Shown here piece by piece: positions 33,720 through 44,060 of a stretch of 64,000 bases of DNA (its first letter is position 1; each line of letters opens with the position of its first letter). The stretch lies in the NCBI GenBank assembly GCA_016841445.1, contig JAENZD010000003.1, positions 251,969-315,968 on the forward strand, given 5' to 3'. A program made the position numbers and the translations under genes. A model generated the notes under the pieces. The model saw only the letters and a list, made by a program, of their open reading frames with translations. It did not search any database and was not told where the DNA came from. The DNA comes from Anaerolineaceae bacterium (GTDB lineage Bacteria > Chloroflexota > Anaerolineae > Anaerolineales > Anaerolineaceae).

Positions 33720-35792
33720 ATGTTCAAATTTCTTTCATCGCGACGGGTGGTTGTCCAACTAACACTTGTGTTTTTTGTGATCATCCTGATCATGGGACTG
33801 GGTGTAGGCCTGCCTTCCATGCTGATCATGTCACGCCAGACCAAGACCCAGCTCAACGCATTAATCGATCAATCCAACCAGACAACGCAGGTATTGCTCG
33901 AAAACAAAGCTTCCTATCTTCAGGAACTTGCTCAATTAATTGCAGAGCGTCCAACCTTGAACCAACTCCTTTTAGACCCGGATAATACACAGTCAATCAT
34001 TGAATACCTAGATGATTTTCGAGAGAACATCCAGGTCGATGTGATCGCCGTCTGTGATTCGGAGAACGCTGTTGTCATAACAGGAGATGGTGATCCTTCA
34101 CCCCTGTGCGGAATTAGCGATCCTGAGGGTATCACGCTCCTGGATGGGCAAGGTTGGTGGCTGTCAGAGTCAACGATCCCCGAAACTTCACCTGGAAATC
34201 TACGCGTGATCGTTGCTCAATCGCTGGATTCGATATTTGCAGAATTCAGTATTCAATCAAATTTATATTACGTTTTATATACCGGAGGTCATCTCTTATC
34301 AAGTAATTTGCCTGAATATTTAGATTCTCTGCCTGACATTCGGTCCGGTGAAATACAGTCCTACCAGATTCTTGCATTGGAAAACAACGAATCAGGTGGA
34401 CAAAATTTCCTGTCAACAGTCATCCCTTTGAGCGATGAAACAAGTTATAAACTGGTCGGTTTGTTGAACATCAGTGATTCTCTTGCTTTGAACCAGCAGC
34501 TCCGGAATACCATTCTATTCATCCTGGTCCTCCTCAGTATCTTTGGGACAGGTCTCTCTGTGTTGATTTCCCGCCGCTTCAGCCAACCGCTTAACCAGTT
34601 GGCGCGATCAGCCAATGCGATGCAAGAAGGGGATCTATCGACCCGGATCATCAACGCTTCAAAGATATGGGAGATCGATCAGCTCTCGAATGCCCTGGAA
34701 GATGCCAGGATCAGCCTTAAGCATTCGCTTGATCAACTGTGGAAGGAAAAGGACTGGATTGAGAACTTGCTAAATTCAATTGTTGAGGGCATCCTGACCA
34801 TTGATGACCAGGCGCGGATCACATATGCCAGCGAGGCTATCGAACGGCTGATCGGTGTGGAATTATCTACCTTGTTAGGCCAGCCTGTTGATCATTTCTT
34901 TTCAAGTGCCCCAGGAGAAGATTTATTCAGCCATCAAATCCCTCCTGAAAATCAAAACAGGCGGGTTCCAGTACTGATTAGCGGCCAGGAGGTCTTACTG
35001 GCATTATCGACGTCGAAATTTGTCCCGCTGGAAGCTGGGAATGCGACCCGGGCATTGGTGGTCCGGGATGTCACAGATGAAGAACGCATTCACAGGTTAT
35101 TAGGTGAGTTCATGGCGAATATCACCCACGAATTTCGGACACCGCTTTCTGCGCTATCGGCGTCTGTTGAGCTGCTGATGGATAAGCTGCCAGACCTCTC
35201 AACAACAGAGATACAGGAATTGGTTGGTGCACTCAACGTGGGTATTCTCAACCTGCAGTCTTTCATCGATAACCTGATTGAAGCCGCAAGTATTGAAGGC
35301 GGCCGGTTTAAAGTCAATGTGAAGCCCACCGCCTTTCAGGGAATCATAGACGATGCCGTCAGCATGGTTGAGCCAATTGCCCAAAGGTTGGGTGTAGAGA
35401 TCAACCAACCTAAAAACAAGCAGGCATTCCTGGTGATGGCTGACCAACACCGGACCTGCCAGGCTTTGGTCAACCTGCTCTCAAACGCGATAAAATTCAG
35501 TCCTCCGGGCGGTCAGATTAACCTCTCAACGGTGCTCATGGGGAACCAGGTCTATATCGAAGTCAGTGATCAGGGAAAAGGCGTATCTGAAGAACGGCAA
35601 TCCCAGTTGTTCAACCGGTTTATATCCTCTTCAACGAAAGATGATGACACTGATTTTGGATTGGGCTTGGGCCTTGCAGTTGTTAAAGCCATTATTGAAG
35701 CACAAAACGGCAGCGTTGGTTTTAAGAATCGCGAAGAAGGCGGGGCACAATTCTGGATCACGCTGCCGATGGTTATGGATGATAAATCATGA
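33720..35792 (+). CDS. membrane sensor histidine kinase (extracytoplasmic sensor, HAMP, PAS, HisKA, HATPase)
   Basis: 690 residues: helix at about 10-33, a 225-residue extracytoplasmic domain with a Cys pair (VCDS and PLCG), a second helix near 262-282, HAMP (about 283-336) with SRRFSQPLNQLARSANAMQ, PAS (about 345-455), then the phosphoacceptor H470 in NITHEFRTPLSALSA, N-box NLLSNAIKFSPPGG, G1 DQGKGV and G2 GLGLGLAVVKAI. It is orthodox and probably bifunctional. It overlaps the response regulator by ATGA and lies upstream of the sulfate-type ABC operon, so it may sense sulfate or a related anion (inference). There is no clear Shine-Dalgarno; TAATTA lies upstream. Confidence 0.93.
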   Translation: MFKFLSSRRVVVQLTLVFFVIILIMGLGVGLPSMLIMSRQTKTQLNALIDQSNQTTQVLLENKASYLQELAQLIAERPTLNQLLLDPDNTQSIIEYLDDFRENIQVDVIAVCDSENAVVITGDGDPSPLCGISDPEGITLLDGQGWWLSESTIPETSPGNLRVIVAQSLDSIFAEFSIQSNLYYVLYTGGHLLSSNLPEYLDSLPDIRSGEIQSYQILALENNESGGQNFLSTVIPLSDETSYKLVGLLNISDSLALNQQLRNTILFILVLLSIFGTGLSVLISRRFSQPLNQLARSANAMQEGDLSTRIINASKIWEIDQLSNALEDARISLKHSLDQLWKEKDWIENLLNSIVEGILTIDDQARITYASEAIERLIGVELSTLLGQPVDHFFSSAPGEDLFSHQIPPENQNRRVPVLISGQEVLLALSTSKFVPLEAGNATRALVVRDVTDEERIHRLLGEFMANITHEFRTPLSALSASVELLMDKLPDLSTTEIQELVGALNVGILNLQSFIDNLIEAASIEGGRFKVNVKPTAFQGIIDDAVSMVEPIAQRLGVEINQPKNKQAFLVMADQHRTCQALVNLLSNAIKFSPPGGQINLSTVLMGNQVYIEVSDQGKGVSEERQSQLFNRFISSSTKDDDTDFGLGLGLAVVKAIIEAQNGSVGFKNREEGGAQFWITLPMVMDDKS

Positions 35793-36478
35793 AAGCTCTG
35801 ATTGTTGATGATGACCGTACTTTGGCTGATCTCCTGGCTTTTACGCTGCGCCGGGAAGGTTTTGAGCCGCACCTGGCATTTGATGCGCCAGGGGCAATGA
35901 AGCAATTCCATAAAGAACCGGTGGATATCGTCATATTGGATGTCAATTTGTCCGGTGGTGCAGGGATGGAAAATGGGTTCGATATCTGCCAGGCGATTCG
36001 ACTGGAGTCCTCTGTACCGATCATCTTATTAACAGTTCGCGATGATGAAGCAGATATTGTAAAAGGATTGGGACTTGGCGCAGATGATTATGTCCACAAA
36101 CCATTCAGCCCCCGCCAGCTGGTTGCCAGGGTTAACAGCCTGATTCGCAGGTCTTCCATGAGCACTGCACCACAGGAAGCGCTTTATACCTGCCAGGATA
36201 TACAATTTGATCCCAACATGCGGGAATTTGTGAAAGGAGACCAACCACCGGTACTTCTCACAAGATTAGAATCCCGTTTATTAGAATATTTTATGCTCAA
36301 TGCCGGCCAGGTCCTTCCATCTGAAAATATTATTGATAATGTTTGGGGTCCTGAGGGCGGAAGCACAGAAATGCTGCGGCAGTTAGTGCGCCGTCTCAGG
36401 ATTAAGATCGAAGAAGATCCACAAGATCCAGACTGGATCAAGAATTTAGGGGGTGTGGGGTATGGTTTTAACATTTAA
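35789..36478 (+). CDS. OmpR/PhoB-family response regulator
   Basis: 229 residues. The receiver has the acidic triad in ALIVDDDR, phospho-acceptor D51 in DIVILDVNL and K104 in DYVHKPFSP; a short extra GGAGMEN loop after D51 is unusual. The C-terminal winged helix (about 135-228) ends GGVGYGFNI. Its start overlaps the kinase gene (ATGA). Next to it, 25 bp after the stop, are four TCACA half-sites with 11-12 bp spacing, the geometry bound by this family, so it probably controls the following ABC operon. Confidence 0.95.
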   Translation: MKALIVDDDRTLADLLAFTLRREGFEPHLAFDAPGAMKQFHKEPVDIVILDVNLSGGAGMENGFDICQAIRLESSVPIILLTVRDDEADIVKGLGLGADDYVHKPFSPRQLVARVNSLIRRSSMSTAPQEALYTCQDIQFDPNMREFVKGDQPPVLLTRLESRLLEYFMLNAGQVLPSENIIDNVWGPEGGSTEMLRQLVRRLRIKIEEDPQDPDWIKNLGGVGYGFNI

Positions 36479-36503: not shown

Positions 36504-36558
36504 CTGTCACAGAAATATCACAGGTCTGTCACACCGGGTATCACGCAGGTTTTATAAA
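36504..36558 (+). promoter_or_regulatory. Pho-box-like tandem direct repeats plus -10, promoter of the sulfate ABC operon
   Basis: TCACA starts at 36507, 36518 and 36529 and TCACG at 36541, so half-sites recur at 11, 11 and 12 bp on one face of the helix. Two are in CTGTCACA and two in ATCAC. A TATAAA at 36553-36558 follows 7 bp after the last half-site, while no good -35 is present, as in promoters activated by PhoB-type regulators that replace the -35. Predicted start is near 36566. The binding protein is inferred to be the adjacent regulator. Confidence 0.65.
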
Positions 36559-36631
36559 ATTGATGTGATTGGGAGATTGTCATGATATCTCCGATTGATC
36601 AATGTTTGCCTAATATATTTCTGGAGATTGC

Positions 36632-38533
36632 ATGTCGATATGCCTTGAGAACATCAGTAAACATTACGGATACCAGGTCGTGGTTAAAAATCTGAGCCTC
36701 GAAGTCCAGGATGGCGAATTTTTCGTTCTTTTAGGCGCAAGCGGGAGCGGAAAAACAACAGTGCTCAATATCATTGCCGGCCTGGTGCAGCCGGATAGGG
36801 GAGAGGTCATGCTCCATGGGCGGAATGTGACCCATTTACCACCGCAGAAGCGGAATATTGGATTTGTTTTCCAGAATTATGCATTATTCCAGTATATGAC
36901 GGTTGCTGAAAATATTGAATTTGGCCTGCAGGTCCGGAAAGTGGCCAAAGAAAATCGGGAGAAAAAGAGAGATGAATTGCTGGATATGGTCGGCCTGGTC
37001 GGCATGGGGAACCGAATGCCAAACCAGCTCTCAGGCGGACAGCAGCAGCGGGTGGCGTTAGCGCGTGCATTAGCGCTTGAACCAGATGTCCTTCTTTTGG
37101 ACGAACCATTGGGAGCTCTGGATGCAAAGATCCGAGTGGAATTAAGACGCACACTAAAAAATATCCAGCAAAAATCAGGTGTAACCGCGATTTTAGTGAC
37201 CCACGACCAGGAAGAGGCTTTTAATTTAGGTGACCGGATTGGGGTCATGAATTTTGGCCGGTTGATCGAAGTAGGTACGCCGCAAGCCCTGTACCAATAC
37301 CCCAAAACGGAATATGTCGCTTCGTTTTTAGGTTCAGCCAATTTGTGGTTGGGGAGTATTGTTGGCAATCAGGTTCATTTCGGGACGCATGCATTACCGC
37401 TCCCCGAAGATGCTATTCAACTCAGTTCCAACAGCAGGGCGCAGATCCTTTTCCGGCCAGAAGATGTCGCTTTGGGAAAATCTATTGATGACCTTGGCTG
37501 TATCCCCTTAGGAGAAGGAAAAGTCATAGAGAAGGGCTTCAGCGGTGCTGCAGAACGGCTTTGTGTTGAAATCCCGGCAATACAGGGTGTCCGGGCGATA
37601 TCCCCAACAGTCCCGTATGGTAACCCTGATTTCTTGTTGGATGTCAACCGTTCACCTGAGCAAAGTACAAATACCCCTTTGATCCCGGGAAATAACGCAT
37701 GGGTCGGGATCAGACGTCTGCATGTTATTTCACATCCCGGTCTAAAATTTTTGATTGTCACAGATTCATCCCTGCGCAGTCAATCTGCGGTCTCATTAGG
37801 CGGGTATATGGCCAGGATGTCCCATGCCCGGGTGCTGCTCTTAGGTGTGGGTCAGGACAAAGTTAAGTTAGAGGAGCACTTGATTGATGCCAGGAAACTA
37901 TTAGGCAGCGGTATGGCATCCCTGCAGGTGAAATCTTCCCCAAATGACTTAACTGGTGCTATCACGAACGCGGTTGAAATGCAGCCATTTGATTTGGTGA
38001 TTCTAGGGTGGCGACCCACAGCAGGTTTTGACCAGCCAGATCAGATTTTGCAAACAGGAGAACATCACTTGCTCCTGGCAGCAAAACCGGTTGCAAAGCT
38101 CAGCAAGGCATTGATCTGTTTAGCCAGCGGGGAGCCCGGGAAAGATAATGTGATTTTCGCAGGTCGACTTCTCCGGCATTTGGGGGCAGAGGCAACCTTG
38201 TTGACTGTTGTACCGCCTGCACAAGATGAAGATGAATCCCATGAAAGGATTGATCGGTTCCTGGCAGGTGGCCAAAACAGCCTGTCACGTTTTGGTGTGC
38301 CCTCTGTGGTCAAGATTAAAAAGGGTGAGTTGGTTGATGCTGTAAGGGAGGAAATGAGCAGTGGCGATTACGACCTGGTCGTTCTTGGTGCACCTCTTCC
38401 TACTTCCACGAGAAAAACCAGCATGACAGGTGCAATTCGTGATGTCCTTTCGAATGTTGAGAATTGTTCATTTTTAATCATCCGCTCCCATCAATACCAG
38501 CGGCTTCAAACTCGTTATTGGAGGAATCCATGA
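36632..38533 (+). CDS. cysA: sulfate/thiosulfate ABC ATPase fused to two universal-stress-protein-like domains
   Basis: 633 residues, far longer than usual CysA (about 350). Residues 1-235 are the ATPase with Walker A GASGSGKTT, signature [15 protein letters not shown], Walker B LLLDEPLGALD and H-loop VTHDQEE; about 240-365 is a TOBE-type regulatory segment (RAQILFRPEDVAL). From about 372 a first USP-like Rossmann domain begins (FLIVTDSSLRSQSAV), and a second at about 487 (KALICLASGEPGKDN to FLIIRS). The canonical USP GxxGx9G(S/T) ATP motif is not clearly kept. The tail may sense nucleotide state. It leads the ABC operon, overlapping the binding-protein gene by ATGA. CTGGAG precedes the ATG. 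Confidence 0.88.
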   Translation: MSICLENISKHYGYQVVVKNLSLEVQDGEFFVLLGASGSGKTTVLNIIAGLVQPDRGEVMLHGRNVTHLPPQKRNIGFVFQNYALFQYMTVAENIEFGLQVRKVAKENREKKRDELLDMVGLVGMGNRMPNQLSGGQQQRVALARALALEPDVLLLDEPLGALDAKIRVELRRTLKNIQQKSGVTAILVTHDQEEAFNLGDRIGVMNFGRLIEVGTPQALYQYPKTEYVASFLGSANLWLGSIVGNQVHFGTHALPLPEDAIQLSSNSRAQILFRPEDVALGKSIDDLGCIPLGEGKVIEKGFSGAAERLCVEIPAIQGVRAISPTVPYGNPDFLLDVNRSPEQSTNTPLIPGNNAWVGIRRLHVISHPGLKFLIVTDSSLRSQSAVSLGGYMARMSHARVLLLGVGQDKVKLEEHLIDARKLLGSGMASLQVKSSPNDLTGAITNAVEMQPFDLVILGWRPTAGFDQPDQILQTGEHHLLLAAKPVAKLSKALICLASGEPGKDNVIFAGRLLRHLGAEATLLTVVPPAQDEDESHERIDRFLAGGQNSLSRFGVPSVVKIKKGELVDAVREEMSSGDYDLVVLGAPLPTSTRKTSMTGAIRDVLSNVENCSFLIIRSHQYQRLQTRYWRNP

Positions 38534-39573
38534 AAAACAATAAAAAACTGATCTCAATGTGTTTGATGATCCTATTCCTGCTTGTCTCCTGCAGCGGGGG
38601 GTCTCAAAACAACTCGGCCAATGAAGTAAAGTTGATCCTGGGTGCGTACACAACCCCCAGAGAAGCTTACAGCCAGATCATCCCGCTGTTTCAAGCCTTT
38701 TGGTTGGAAGAAACTGGTCAAAGGGTTGTCGTCGAGGAGTCGTACCTTGGGTCTGGCGCGCAATCACGAGCAGTGATCAATGGATTTGAGGCAGATGTGG
38801 TTGCACTCTCCCTGGAAGCAGACGTGAACCGGATCCAGGATGCAGGGCTGATCAGCCATGATTGGAAACTGGGGGAGGAGAAGGGAATCATTACGACATC
38901 CGTTGTTGCGTTTGCAGTTCGAGAAGGGAACCCCCTGGCCATAGAAGACTGGAATGACCTTCTCCAACCCGGCTTGGAAATCCTAACGCCCAATCCCAGT
39001 ACAAGCGGGGGGGCGATGTGGAACGTTTTGGCATTATACGGTGCAGCCTTAAGAGGGAAAATTGATGGTGTACCTGGAGACGATGCGGATGCAGCCCAGG
39101 ACTTCTTAAAAGATGTTTTAACAAACGTGAGTGTGATGGACAAAGCTGCTCGAGACAGCATCATCAATTTTGAGAATGGGATTGGTGACCTTGCGATTAC
39201 CTATGAGAATGAAGTACTTGTCGGCAGGCAATCCGGGCAAACTTATGAACTTGTGATCCCTTCCTCGACCATATTGATTGAAAATCCCGTCGCGATCGTC
39301 GATACAAGTGTGGATAAACACGGTAATCGGGCGGTTGCTGAGGCATTTGTCGAATTCCTCTATTCGGAACAGGCTCAGGAGATTTTTGCCCAGCACGGCC
39401 TGCGCGTTGTGAATGACACAGTTGCTGAGGCATCTAAATCACAATACCCGGATGTCCCGGACTTGTTTACCGTCGATTACTTTGGCGGATGGGATGTGAT
39501 CATGACTGACATCTTTGGAGAATCAGGCATCTTTACCCAGGCGATCCTGGATGTGCAGGGGGGAAGCCAGTGA
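38530..39573 (+). CDS. sulfate/thiosulfate-type substrate-binding lipoprotein
   Basis: About 347 residues from ATG 38530 (GGAGGAATCC upstream; it overlaps the ATPase stop by ATGA). The lipobox is LLVS-C21. The fold matches Sbp/CysP: LGAYTTPREAY, GSGAQSRAVINGFEADVVALSLE, AFAVREGNPLAIEDWNDLL and TPNPSTSGGAMWN, the loops that dehydrate and hold the oxyanion. Some residues of canonical Sbp (HGGSGKQ, KTSGGARW) are changed to YLGSGAQ and STSGGAMW, so ligand preference could differ from sulfate. Confidence 0.85.
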   Translation: MKNNKKLISMCLMILFLLVSCSGGSQNNSANEVKLILGAYTTPREAYSQIIPLFQAFWLEETGQRVVVEESYLGSGAQSRAVINGFEADVVALSLEADVNRIQDAGLISHDWKLGEEKGIITTSVVAFAVREGNPLAIEDWNDLLQPGLEILTPNPSTSGGAMWNVLALYGAALRGKIDGVPGDDADAAQDFLKDVLTNVSVMDKAARDSIINFENGIGDLAITYENEVLVGRQSGQTYELVIPSSTILIENPVAIVDTSVDKHGNRAVAEAFVEFLYSEQAQEIFAQHGLRVVNDTVAEASKSQYPDVPDLFTVDYFGGWDVIMTDIFGESGIFTQAILDVQGGSQ

Positions 39574-40409
39574 TGGATATTCCGTTATCCGGAACTTTTC
39601 AAAAGAGAAAACTGCCTCACCTCGCCATGCGAAGTGCGGGGTTGACCTATATCATTTTGATGATCGTGGTTCCGTTAATTGTGATCCTCCAGGACGGATT
39701 CCGGGAGGGTGTATCGGAATTGATACGCCAAATATCACTGCCCATTGCGAAACATGCCATTGTACTGACCCTGTGGACTTCAGCATTGATGACCCTGATC
39801 AATGCCGTGATGGGACTTATCACAACCTATGTGATCGTCCGATTTTCCTTTCCTGGAAAGCGACTATTGAATGCTTTGATCGATTTACCTTTGGCTATCC
39901 CAACCCTTGTGACCGGGGTTATGCTGGTGATGCTGTACGGTCCACAAGAAGCGATAGGCGGGTTTCTCTCACAAAAAATTAGTTTGGATATTATTTTTGC
40001 TCCTCCAGGGATCGTCATTTCCCTGCTATTCATATCCTTTCCTTTTGTTGTCAGAAATATTCAGCCTGTACTTCAGGAACTGGACCTTACCCAGGAAGAT
40101 GCTGCCGCCACGTTAGGCGCAAGTCCCTGGAAAATTTTCTGGAAAGTGGTTTTCCCGAGTCTGTTTTTGCCGCTGCTCAGTGGGTCGCTTCTCAGTTTTT
40201 CCCGCGCTGTGGGCGAGTTCGGTGCTGTTGTCATTGTGGCGGGGAATATTCCTTTGAAGACTCAGACCGCAGCAGTTTACGTATTGGGTGCGGTTGAATC
40301 CGAGAACCGTTTAGGTGCCAGTGCAGTCTCAATTCTTTTGGTTGCGATTGCGCTGCTGGTGTTATTTATTGCCAACAAACTGCATCAACGCTGGGGTGTA
40401 AAACAGTGA
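39573..40409 (+). CDS. cysT: sulfate ABC transporter permease CysT-like
   Basis: 278 residues with six membrane segments. The EAA loop is EDAAATLGASPWKIFWKVVFPSL. The sequence runs like CysT/CysU, with IDLPLAIPTLVTGVMLVMLYGP. The start codon is ATG 39573 (TGATG overlap) or GTG 39570. It pairs with the next permease to form a heterodimeric channel. Confidence 0.9.
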   Translation: MDIPLSGTFQKRKLPHLAMRSAGLTYIILMIVVPLIVILQDGFREGVSELIRQISLPIAKHAIVLTLWTSALMTLINAVMGLITTYVIVRFSFPGKRLLNALIDLPLAIPTLVTGVMLVMLYGPQEAIGGFLSQKISLDIIFAPPGIVISLLFISFPFVVRNIQPVLQELDLTQEDAAATLGASPWKIFWKVVFPSLFLPLLSGSLLSFSRAVGEFGAVVIVAGNIPLKTQTAAVYVLGAVESENRLGASAVSILLVAIALLVLFIANKLHQRWGVKQ

Positions 40410-41221
40410 AAAACAGGAAGCTGGGATTGGGTGCCTGGCTGTTGATCGGGCTGGTCATCCTATATATGGGCTTTTTGTTGATTGCCCCGATAACGGCATT
40501 GATCAAAGGTGCTTTTGAAGATGGGATTAACCCTGTACTTGGAAGCATACGGTCAGAAGCATTCCTAAAATCATTGCTTTTGTCCGTTGAGATCGCAGTT
40601 CTCGTTGTTGGCGTGCAGACTATTTTTGGAACGCTGACAGCCTGGGTGATTGTACGCCATGATTTCAGGGGAAAAGGAATTCTGAATAACGTGATCGACA
40701 TTCCCTTTGCGATCTCTCCAGTCGTCGTGGGCTATATGTTATTGCTCCTGTTTGGGCGGAATGGCTTTCTTAGCCCTGTTTTAGAGGCACTCAATGTTAA
40801 GGTTGCTTTTGCTGTCCCGGGGATGTGCCTGGCGACGCTGTTTGTCTGCCTGCCTTTCATGATTAGAGAGATGATTCCGGTCATCAAAGGACTTGACCGG
40901 CAGCAGGAGTTAGCTGCTGCTACCCTCGGTGCAAATGCATGGGTCAATTTCTGGCAGATCATTTTTCCCCAATTAAAGAGCGCATTGATCTATGGGATGA
41001 CCCTGACATTAGCGAGGGCATTGGGAGAGTTTGGCGCGGTCTTGATCATTGGCGGAGGTATCCAGGGCAGGACTGAAACTGCGACCCTGTACATTTTCCG
41101 GTGTTTGGAGGAACGGCAATTCGTTCAAGCCTACACGATGTCGATCATCCTGGGTTTGTTTTCTGTCCTTATCGTTGTTCTGGCGGATCGGATCAAGCAC
41201 AAGGTCAAATTCGCCGATTAA
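40406..41221 (+). CDS. cysW: sulfate ABC transporter permease CysW-like
   Basis: 271 residues with six membrane segments and the EAA loop QELAAATLGANAWVNFWQIIFP. The GTG start overlaps the previous stop as GTGA. A VIDIPFAISPVVVGYMLLLLFG segment is typical of CysW. It is the last gene of the cysA-binding protein-cysT-cysW unit. No sulfate reduction genes are nearby. Confidence 0.9.
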   Translation: MKNRKLGLGAWLLIGLVILYMGFLLIAPITALIKGAFEDGINPVLGSIRSEAFLKSLLLSVEIAVLVVGVQTIFGTLTAWVIVRHDFRGKGILNNVIDIPFAISPVVVGYMLLLLFGRNGFLSPVLEALNVKVAFAVPGMCLATLFVCLPFMIREMIPVIKGLDRQQELAAATLGANAWVNFWQIIFPQLKSALIYGMTLTLARALGEFGAVLIIGGGIQGRTETATLYIFRCLEERQFVQAYTMSIILGLFSVLIVVLADRIKHKVKFAD

Positions 41222-43601: not shown

Positions 43602-44060
43602 TTAAGGTTCTGTCGGGTAACCGGCTTCGATCCAGGCTTCATAGCCGCCCAGGATCGGATTGGCTCGTGAGAAACCTGCTTCGTACATTAGAAACGCCAC
43701 ACGGGCGCTTGTATTTTCAGCCGGTCAGGTGCAGTAAGTGACGTACCAGGCTTCGGGATCCAATTCGGCTAAGGATGAATCGATTTGATCAAGTGGAACA
43801 TTGATCGCACCTTCAGCATGGCCAGCCTGGAATTGGGTTACTGTTCGGGTGTCGACCAGGATTGCTTCTCCGCTGGTGAAAGCTTCATATGCTTCATCTA
43901 CTGTTACTCTTGGAATGTCATCCTGGGTGGCGTAATCACCTGGATTTTCAATATTTGCCCGGCGTAAGCTTTGGGCAAGGATCAAACCACCAATACTCAA
44001 TACGATGACTACAGCAAATAAAATGATCGGTAATATAGTTTTATTCTTTTTGCTTTTCAA
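43602..44060 (-). CDS. selenocysteine-containing rhodanese-like membrane-anchored protein (UGA read as Sec)
   Basis: 152 residues with Sec at 112. The track stops at the TGA (43725-43727), but the same frame continues for 40 codons to TAA at 43602 with clear rhodanese sequence: YCT-U-PAENTSARVA, then GGYEAWIEAGYP. The family normally has YCxCPxE here, so U replaces the second Cys of the CxC motif. A SECIS-like hairpin starts 14 nt after the TGA and the window encodes tRNA-Sec. Residues about 8-30 form a membrane anchor, so the single rhodanese domain (about 48-150) faces outside. TTG start with AAAGGA upstream. It lies 28 nt after copA. Role: sulfur or redox chemistry, possibly copper-related (inference). 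Confidence 0.9.
43692..43710 (-). promoter_or_regulatory. bacterial SECIS element (selenocysteine insertion hairpin)
   Basis: The mRNA after the UGA has 14 nt, then AAGCGCC paired with GGCGUUU (7 bp including one G-U) around loop CGUGU. Distance, stem length, 5-nt loop and a G at loop position 2 match bacterial SECIS rules for SelB binding. Confidence 0.85.

Follow-up and report, generated by a model that had tools for sequence, protein, structure and literature searches.

A conserved four-copy TCAC promoter module between a PhoB-like two-component system and a sulfate-family ABC transporter operon in Anaerolineaceae

Does the two-component system encoded directly ahead of a sulfate-family transporter operon in an Anaerolineaceae bacterium control that operon, and through which DNA element? 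We analyzed a stretch of 64,000 nucleotides (hereafter the window) on contig 2 of the 3.35-Mb genome. In the window, a histidine kinase gene and an OmpR/PhoB-type regulator gene are followed by a 153-bp gap and then by the genes for a CysA-type ATPase, a binding lipoprotein, CysT and CysW. Neighboring genes within the kinase-regulator block and within the transporter block are joined by ATGA/GTGA overlaps. The gap before cysA holds CTGTCACAGAA-ATATCACAGGT-CTGTCACACCGG-GTATCACG, which starts at position 36504. The features of the locus are as follows.

33720 to 35792, plus strand: sensor histidine kinase (Pfam; orthologue alignment), with TM, extracytoplasmic CACHE/PAS-like sensor, HAMP, PAS, HisKA and HATPase domains and a conserved cysteine pair (C112, C130)
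35789 to 36478, plus strand: OmpR/PhoB-type response regulator (Pfam, alignment, tree), overlapping the kinase gene at ATGA; recognition helix EMLRQLVRRLR
36505 to 36510, plus strand: putative operator half-site 1, TGTCAC
36516 to 36521, plus strand: putative operator half-site 2, TATCAC (11-bp step)
36527 to 36532, plus strand: putative operator half-site 3, TGTCAC (11-bp step)
36539 to 36544, plus strand: putative operator half-site 4, TATCAC (12-bp step)
36555 to 36560, plus strand: -10 element TAAAAT, lined up with the TAnAnT found in the other 18 sites of the alignment
36632 to 38533, plus strand: CysA-type ABC ATPase, extended at its C-terminus by a long stretch that matches Usp (profile search)
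38530 to 39573, plus strand: sulfate-family substrate-binding lipoprotein (TIGR00971), overlapping cysA at ATGA
39570 to 40409, plus strand: CysT-type permease (TIGR00969, 277.6 bits; cut-off, 240)
40406 to 41221, plus strand: CysW-type permease (TIGR00969, 263.5 bits; cut-off, 240)

The binding lipoprotein scored 260.9 bits against TIGR00971 (cut-off, 155.5), and its top match among solved structures was the sulfate-binding protein 1sbp. Relatives with 48-54% identity are encoded in two Anaerolineae MAGs. Since the CysA-type ATPase remained under the TIGR00968 cut-off (309.4 against 342.75), it was assigned to the sulfate transporter by operon context. With the binding protein and both permeases above their cut-offs, the operon encodes a sulfate-family ABC transporter, for which sulfate transport is predicted. 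The Usp match in the C-terminal extension of CysA (window 37700-38530) reached 32.1 bits against a cut-off of 24, and separate tandem-Usp proteins recur in operons of other families that have the same promoter. Near the sulfate operon, a minus-strand ORF (43725-44060) was judged by eye to be a membrane-anchored rhodanese look-alike.

As for the use of the imported sulfate, a Sat-type ATP sulfurylase (Sat-APS kinase) was found in 11 of the 16 genus genomes, and in the window's genome it is a Sat-APS kinase fusion; a sulfotransferase lies nearby there and also in G010. CysH/CysD (PF01507) gave only marginal matches in the genus. Thus, the sulfate taken up is probably channeled into PAPS and sulfation, not into cysteine synthesis; reductive sulfate assimilation was rejected as its use on the marginal PF01507 matches. 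At locus L163 (5933-10007), a bifunctional Sat-APS kinase gene lies near a sulfotransferase gene and a glycosyltransferase-like gene.

Conservation of the repeat/-10 module

The four TCAC cores of the window start at 36507, 36518, 36529 and 36541, with a spacing of 11/11/12. The first-pass annotation of this DNA had reported four half-sites at 11-12 bp steps before a sulfate ABC operon, and had placed them between an OmpR/PhoB-type regulator gene and that operon. The half-sites were seen at these positions, and the gene context was borne out by the Pfam and TIGR profiles. The annotation had also named TATAAA as the -10 element. This hexamer does exist, at 36553-36558, but the register with the other aligned sites gives TAAAAT, which TATAAA overlaps from 2 bp upstream and which begins 10 bp past the last TCAC.

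In the alignment of 19 sites, the TCAC cores were invariant or near-invariant, a T stood two bases before each of cores 1 and 2, and the last step was 12 bp. The TAnAnT -10 started 14 bases after the start of core 4 in every site, and within its columns (49-54), T49, A50 and T54 were invariant. At the expected place of a -35 element (columns 26-31), no conserved bases were found past the edge of core 3. The lack of a -35 that had been noted earlier therefore holds across the aligned sites. With 11-bp direct repeats upstream of a fixed -10 and no conserved -35, the region has a predicted operator architecture of the PhoB type. PHO boxes are 11-nt direct repeats (PMC4415409), and PhoB promoters lack a -35 element, PhoB recruiting sigma region 4 (PMC4496699). 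Thus, the layout matches those of PHO boxes and PhoB promoters.

In the window's genome, the exact 11/11/12 pattern has a single occurrence, at the cysA promoter, so the genome scan proposed by the first-pass annotation returned the sulfate operon promoter and no second exact site; a three-copy site with one mismatch was found on another contig (C3). When the 16 genus genomes were scanned, the exact pattern was found ten times, one per genome in ten species and always in the gap before cysA. Four of the genus genomes (G001, G005, G007 and G014) lack the transporter, and two (G002 and G012) are broken at it. In all ten readable promoters, the four TCAC cores and the fixed -10 were retained while the flanks diverged. 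A profile scan of the genus detected no good operator site upstream of the kinase gene. In one genus member, a one-mismatch four-copy site lies elsewhere (L120, G010:C1:1320867), a possible second target.

The scan was extended to 400 genomes of the order with a pattern tighter than that used for the genus. Twenty-nine exact sites were detected in 25 genomes, and the reversed-pattern control gave 0. Scores of 49-70 bits of the four-copy TCAC profile at its training sites are not independent evidence, since the same sites had been used to build it; the evidence free of this training consists of the exact-pattern counts and two weaker sites (L141 and L156).

The repeat might have been absent before orthologous operons. 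In the genus this was not the case, as 10 of 10 readable promoters carry it. Outside the genus, it precedes most orthologous operons, in L138 and L148 as a four-copy site before sbp and in L141 and L156 in the weaker versions; however, no repeat module was found at the operon of the L139, L145 and L146 relatives, and the repeat is altered to 11/11/11 in L142 and to two copies in L075. Where the sulfate genes were split apart, the pieces often had their own copies of the module. G223 (L140), in which the gene for the binding protein has been relocated ahead of the kinase gene, has one four-copy site before sbp-HK-RR and a second before cysA. G112 (L143) has the same split and two sites, the second core before sbp being TAAC. 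In G323 (L147), the second site faces a divergently transcribed operon, which encodes a further sulfate-type binding protein as well as a tandem Usp protein.

The regulator, the kinase and the genome's own phosphate system

The regulator matched PF00072 and PF00486 above the cut-offs and thus belongs to the OmpR/PhoB family. Against the PhoB equivalog TIGR02154, it scored 148.1 bits (cut-off, 296.2), but this cut-off alone is not decisive, since the genome's PhoB at the PhoR-PstB-PhoU locus also scored below it (231.5). The regulator gene is not linked to phoU or pst genes; a separate locus (L119) holds PhoB-PhoR-PstB-PhoU, and the pstSCAB operon is at L117. In a tree of 24 rows, the orthologues of the regulator grouped in a single clade (100/99), to which neither the genome's PhoB nor the five other paralogues belonged. 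The recognition helix reads MLRQL[VI][RH]RLR in 15 of the 17 aligned orthologues; the remaining two, which are the most distant, have LLKQLVHRLR and MLKQLVYRLR, whereas PhoB has TVDVHVRWLR. The closest solved sequence is RegX3 of Mycobacterium tuberculosis (2oqr).

Within the genus, the regulator and the transporter were both present in 11 genomes, 4 genomes had neither, and one case was broken; the exception among the 12 transporter genomes is G002, in which the contig is broken within cysA. Since the two sets of genes are adjacent, this co-occurrence represents linkage and is not independent evidence.

The sensor domain of the kinase gave no match when aligned against solved sequences. Its modeled fold appears weakly CACHE/PAS-like, with CACHE/PAS sensors as the top-ranking matches, and the model (pLDDT 51.6) is too poor to name a ligand. 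The residues C112 and C130 of the sensor (window 33720-34619) showed no variation among 14 aligned kinases, and Pst-linked relatives keep them too. The pair is possibly a structural disulfide or a redox/metal switch.

In seven genus members, the pstS promoter has an 11-bp repeat of another sequence, TTAAC-N6-TTCAY-N6-GTTAA...GTTAAAT, which is probably a Pho box of the genus. Upstream of pstS in these genomes (L169-L175), the TTAAC/TTCAY/TTAA repeat is accompanied by a -10-like TGATATGAT. At the pst promoter of the window's genome, the four-copy TCAC profile gave -23 bits, as against the range at its training sites. A separate helix and a separate operator, each conserved, are as expected of two insulated paralogues.

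Targets outside the genus and alternative readings

Eleven of the 29 exact sites were in genomes without a linked CysA-type sulfate operon; for two of these (G115 and G181), the contig ends before the target can be read. Directly upstream of non-CysA-type sites lie orthologues of the regulator that belong to the same clade (L212, L213, L215 and L217). In G202, the genes behind the site encode an MshEN protein, PstS-like, PstC, PstA and PstB proteins, a sulfate-type binding protein, an Na/Pi-cotransporter-like membrane protein and a tandem Usp protein, and the order is similar in G107 and G152. NuoE/NuoF genes follow the operator in G107 and G199, and before these genes the operator stands alone. 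HEAT-repeat and V-type ATPase genes lie behind the site in G185. At L213 (5232-12990), L209 and L211, the same four-copy promoter stands before PstSCAB-like operons in which the second binding protein is of the sulfate type and tandem Usp is encoded as well; those of L213 and L209 include an MshEN-type protein.

Genomes with non-CysA-type sites were all absent from the list of sulfate binding proteins at E 1e-60, and a Sat-type ATP sulfurylase is encoded in 7 of 9 of them. On one reading, the Pst-like system with the sulfate-type binding protein would be the sulfate importer of these genomes. The clade might have kept its operator (four copies of TGTCAC, 11/11/12) while its targets swapped between a CysATW-type transporter and a PstSCAB-type transporter with a sulfate-type binding protein, maybe importing sulfate; we regard this as a tentative and rather doubtful scenario. 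The earlier proposal of a PhoB-like pair controlling sulfate rather than phosphate uptake stands for the window's genus, where the only exact site is at the sulfate operon. It does not extend to the whole regulator clade, as the same promoter precedes a PstSCAB-like operon, NuoE/F and V-ATPase genes.

In view of these targets in other families, the signal may extend beyond sulfate limitation. The same regulator and operator could respond to energy, redox or general oxyanion status, and in the genus the sulfate operon would simply be the target. The operons with PstSCAB-like, sulfate-type binding and Usp proteins and the V-ATPase genes, found with the same clade and operator, are consistent with this, as is, again in other families, the operator ahead of NuoE/F; the cysteine pair, kept in sensors of both sulfate and Pst-linked settings, also leans to a shared signal. 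On the other hand, the single exact target in the genus argues for sulfate, and the presence of Sat in most genomes with non-CysA-type sites means that the Pst-like system could itself import sulfate. We give a wider signal appreciable weight, though well short of an even chance.

Other readings concern the repeat itself. TGTCAC at 11-bp steps resembles the PHO boxes of E. coli (CTGTCAT) and Streptomyces (GTTCACC) (PMC4415409), and the operator could be the Pho box of the genome's own PhoB, with the operon in the phosphate regulon. However, the seven pstS promoters of the genus carry the other repeat, the profile score at the pst promoter is negative and the recognition helices are unlike; membership in the Pho regulon is improbable and was rejected on the pst promoters. 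The TCACA core would also fit a CRP/FNR-type site (TGTGA-N6-TCACA), but the four copies run in the same direction at 11-12 bp, with no TGTGA partner upstream at the CRP spacing. The aligned sites conserve direct repeats, and no inverted TGTGA-N6-TCACA was seen in the genus promoters. This geometry is wrong for CRP/FNR, and such a site is very improbable. TCAC is short and might recur by chance or in a low-complexity repeat without function; yet none of 200 versions of the window simulated with an order-1 Markov model contained four TCAC at 10-12 bp spacing, the reversed control was likewise 0 in the 400 genomes, and conservation of the repeat spans ten species as well as several families. A chance origin is scarcely credible and was rejected on both zero counts.

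Proposed mechanism and related systems

Genome comparison shows a repeat/-10 module that is both conserved and specific; it is found together with the regulator clade and is unlike the PhoB/pst module. We conclude, with a probability of about 0.7, that the two-component system encoded next to the four repeats uses them as its operator and would switch on cysA-sbp-cysT-cysW by a PhoB-like mechanism. When triggered, the membrane kinase would lead to phosphorylation of the regulator. The phosphorylated regulator would then occupy all four TGTCAC half-sites in head-to-tail orientation along the same face of the DNA, and would probably do so in the form of two dimers in tandem. Since the promoter is without a -35, the bound regulator would recruit sigma region 4, bring RNA polymerase to the fixed -10 and turn on the operon. 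The binding by the regulator, the sigma contact and activation rather than repression are what we infer from the sequences. That the trigger in the genus is sulfate scarcity is the least certain part. A dedicated PhoB-like sulfate promoter in the genus is well supported by the sequence comparisons.

The system resembles E. coli PhoB and its pho box in having an OmpR/PhoB-type regulator, 11-bp direct repeats with a TGTCA core, a fixed -10 and no -35. It differs in the recognition helix, in the sub-cut-off TIGR02154 score, in its sulfate-family ABC target and in its four half-sites, of which the last follows at a conserved 12-bp step. The PHO box of Streptomyces PhoP also consists of TCAC-containing 11-nt direct repeats, but there it serves the phosphate regulon, with targets unlike those seen here. 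SenX3-RegX3 of M. tuberculosis, to which the closest solved sequence belongs, is a phosphate system (PMC4415409).

CysB and CymR, known regulators of bacterial sulfate uptake, are one-component, cytoplasmic proteins. Control of the CysB/CymR type also acts on sulfate transport genes, but, unlike the present system, it has no kinase and no tandem direct repeats. Our literature search found no paper on two-component control of bacterial sulfate uptake. A PhoB-like sulfate pair with an operator unlike that of the phosphate system of the same cell would be a case of paralogous nutrient switches insulated by changes in recognition helix and operator, and the sites outside the genus may serve as a natural series for studying how new targets come under one operator.
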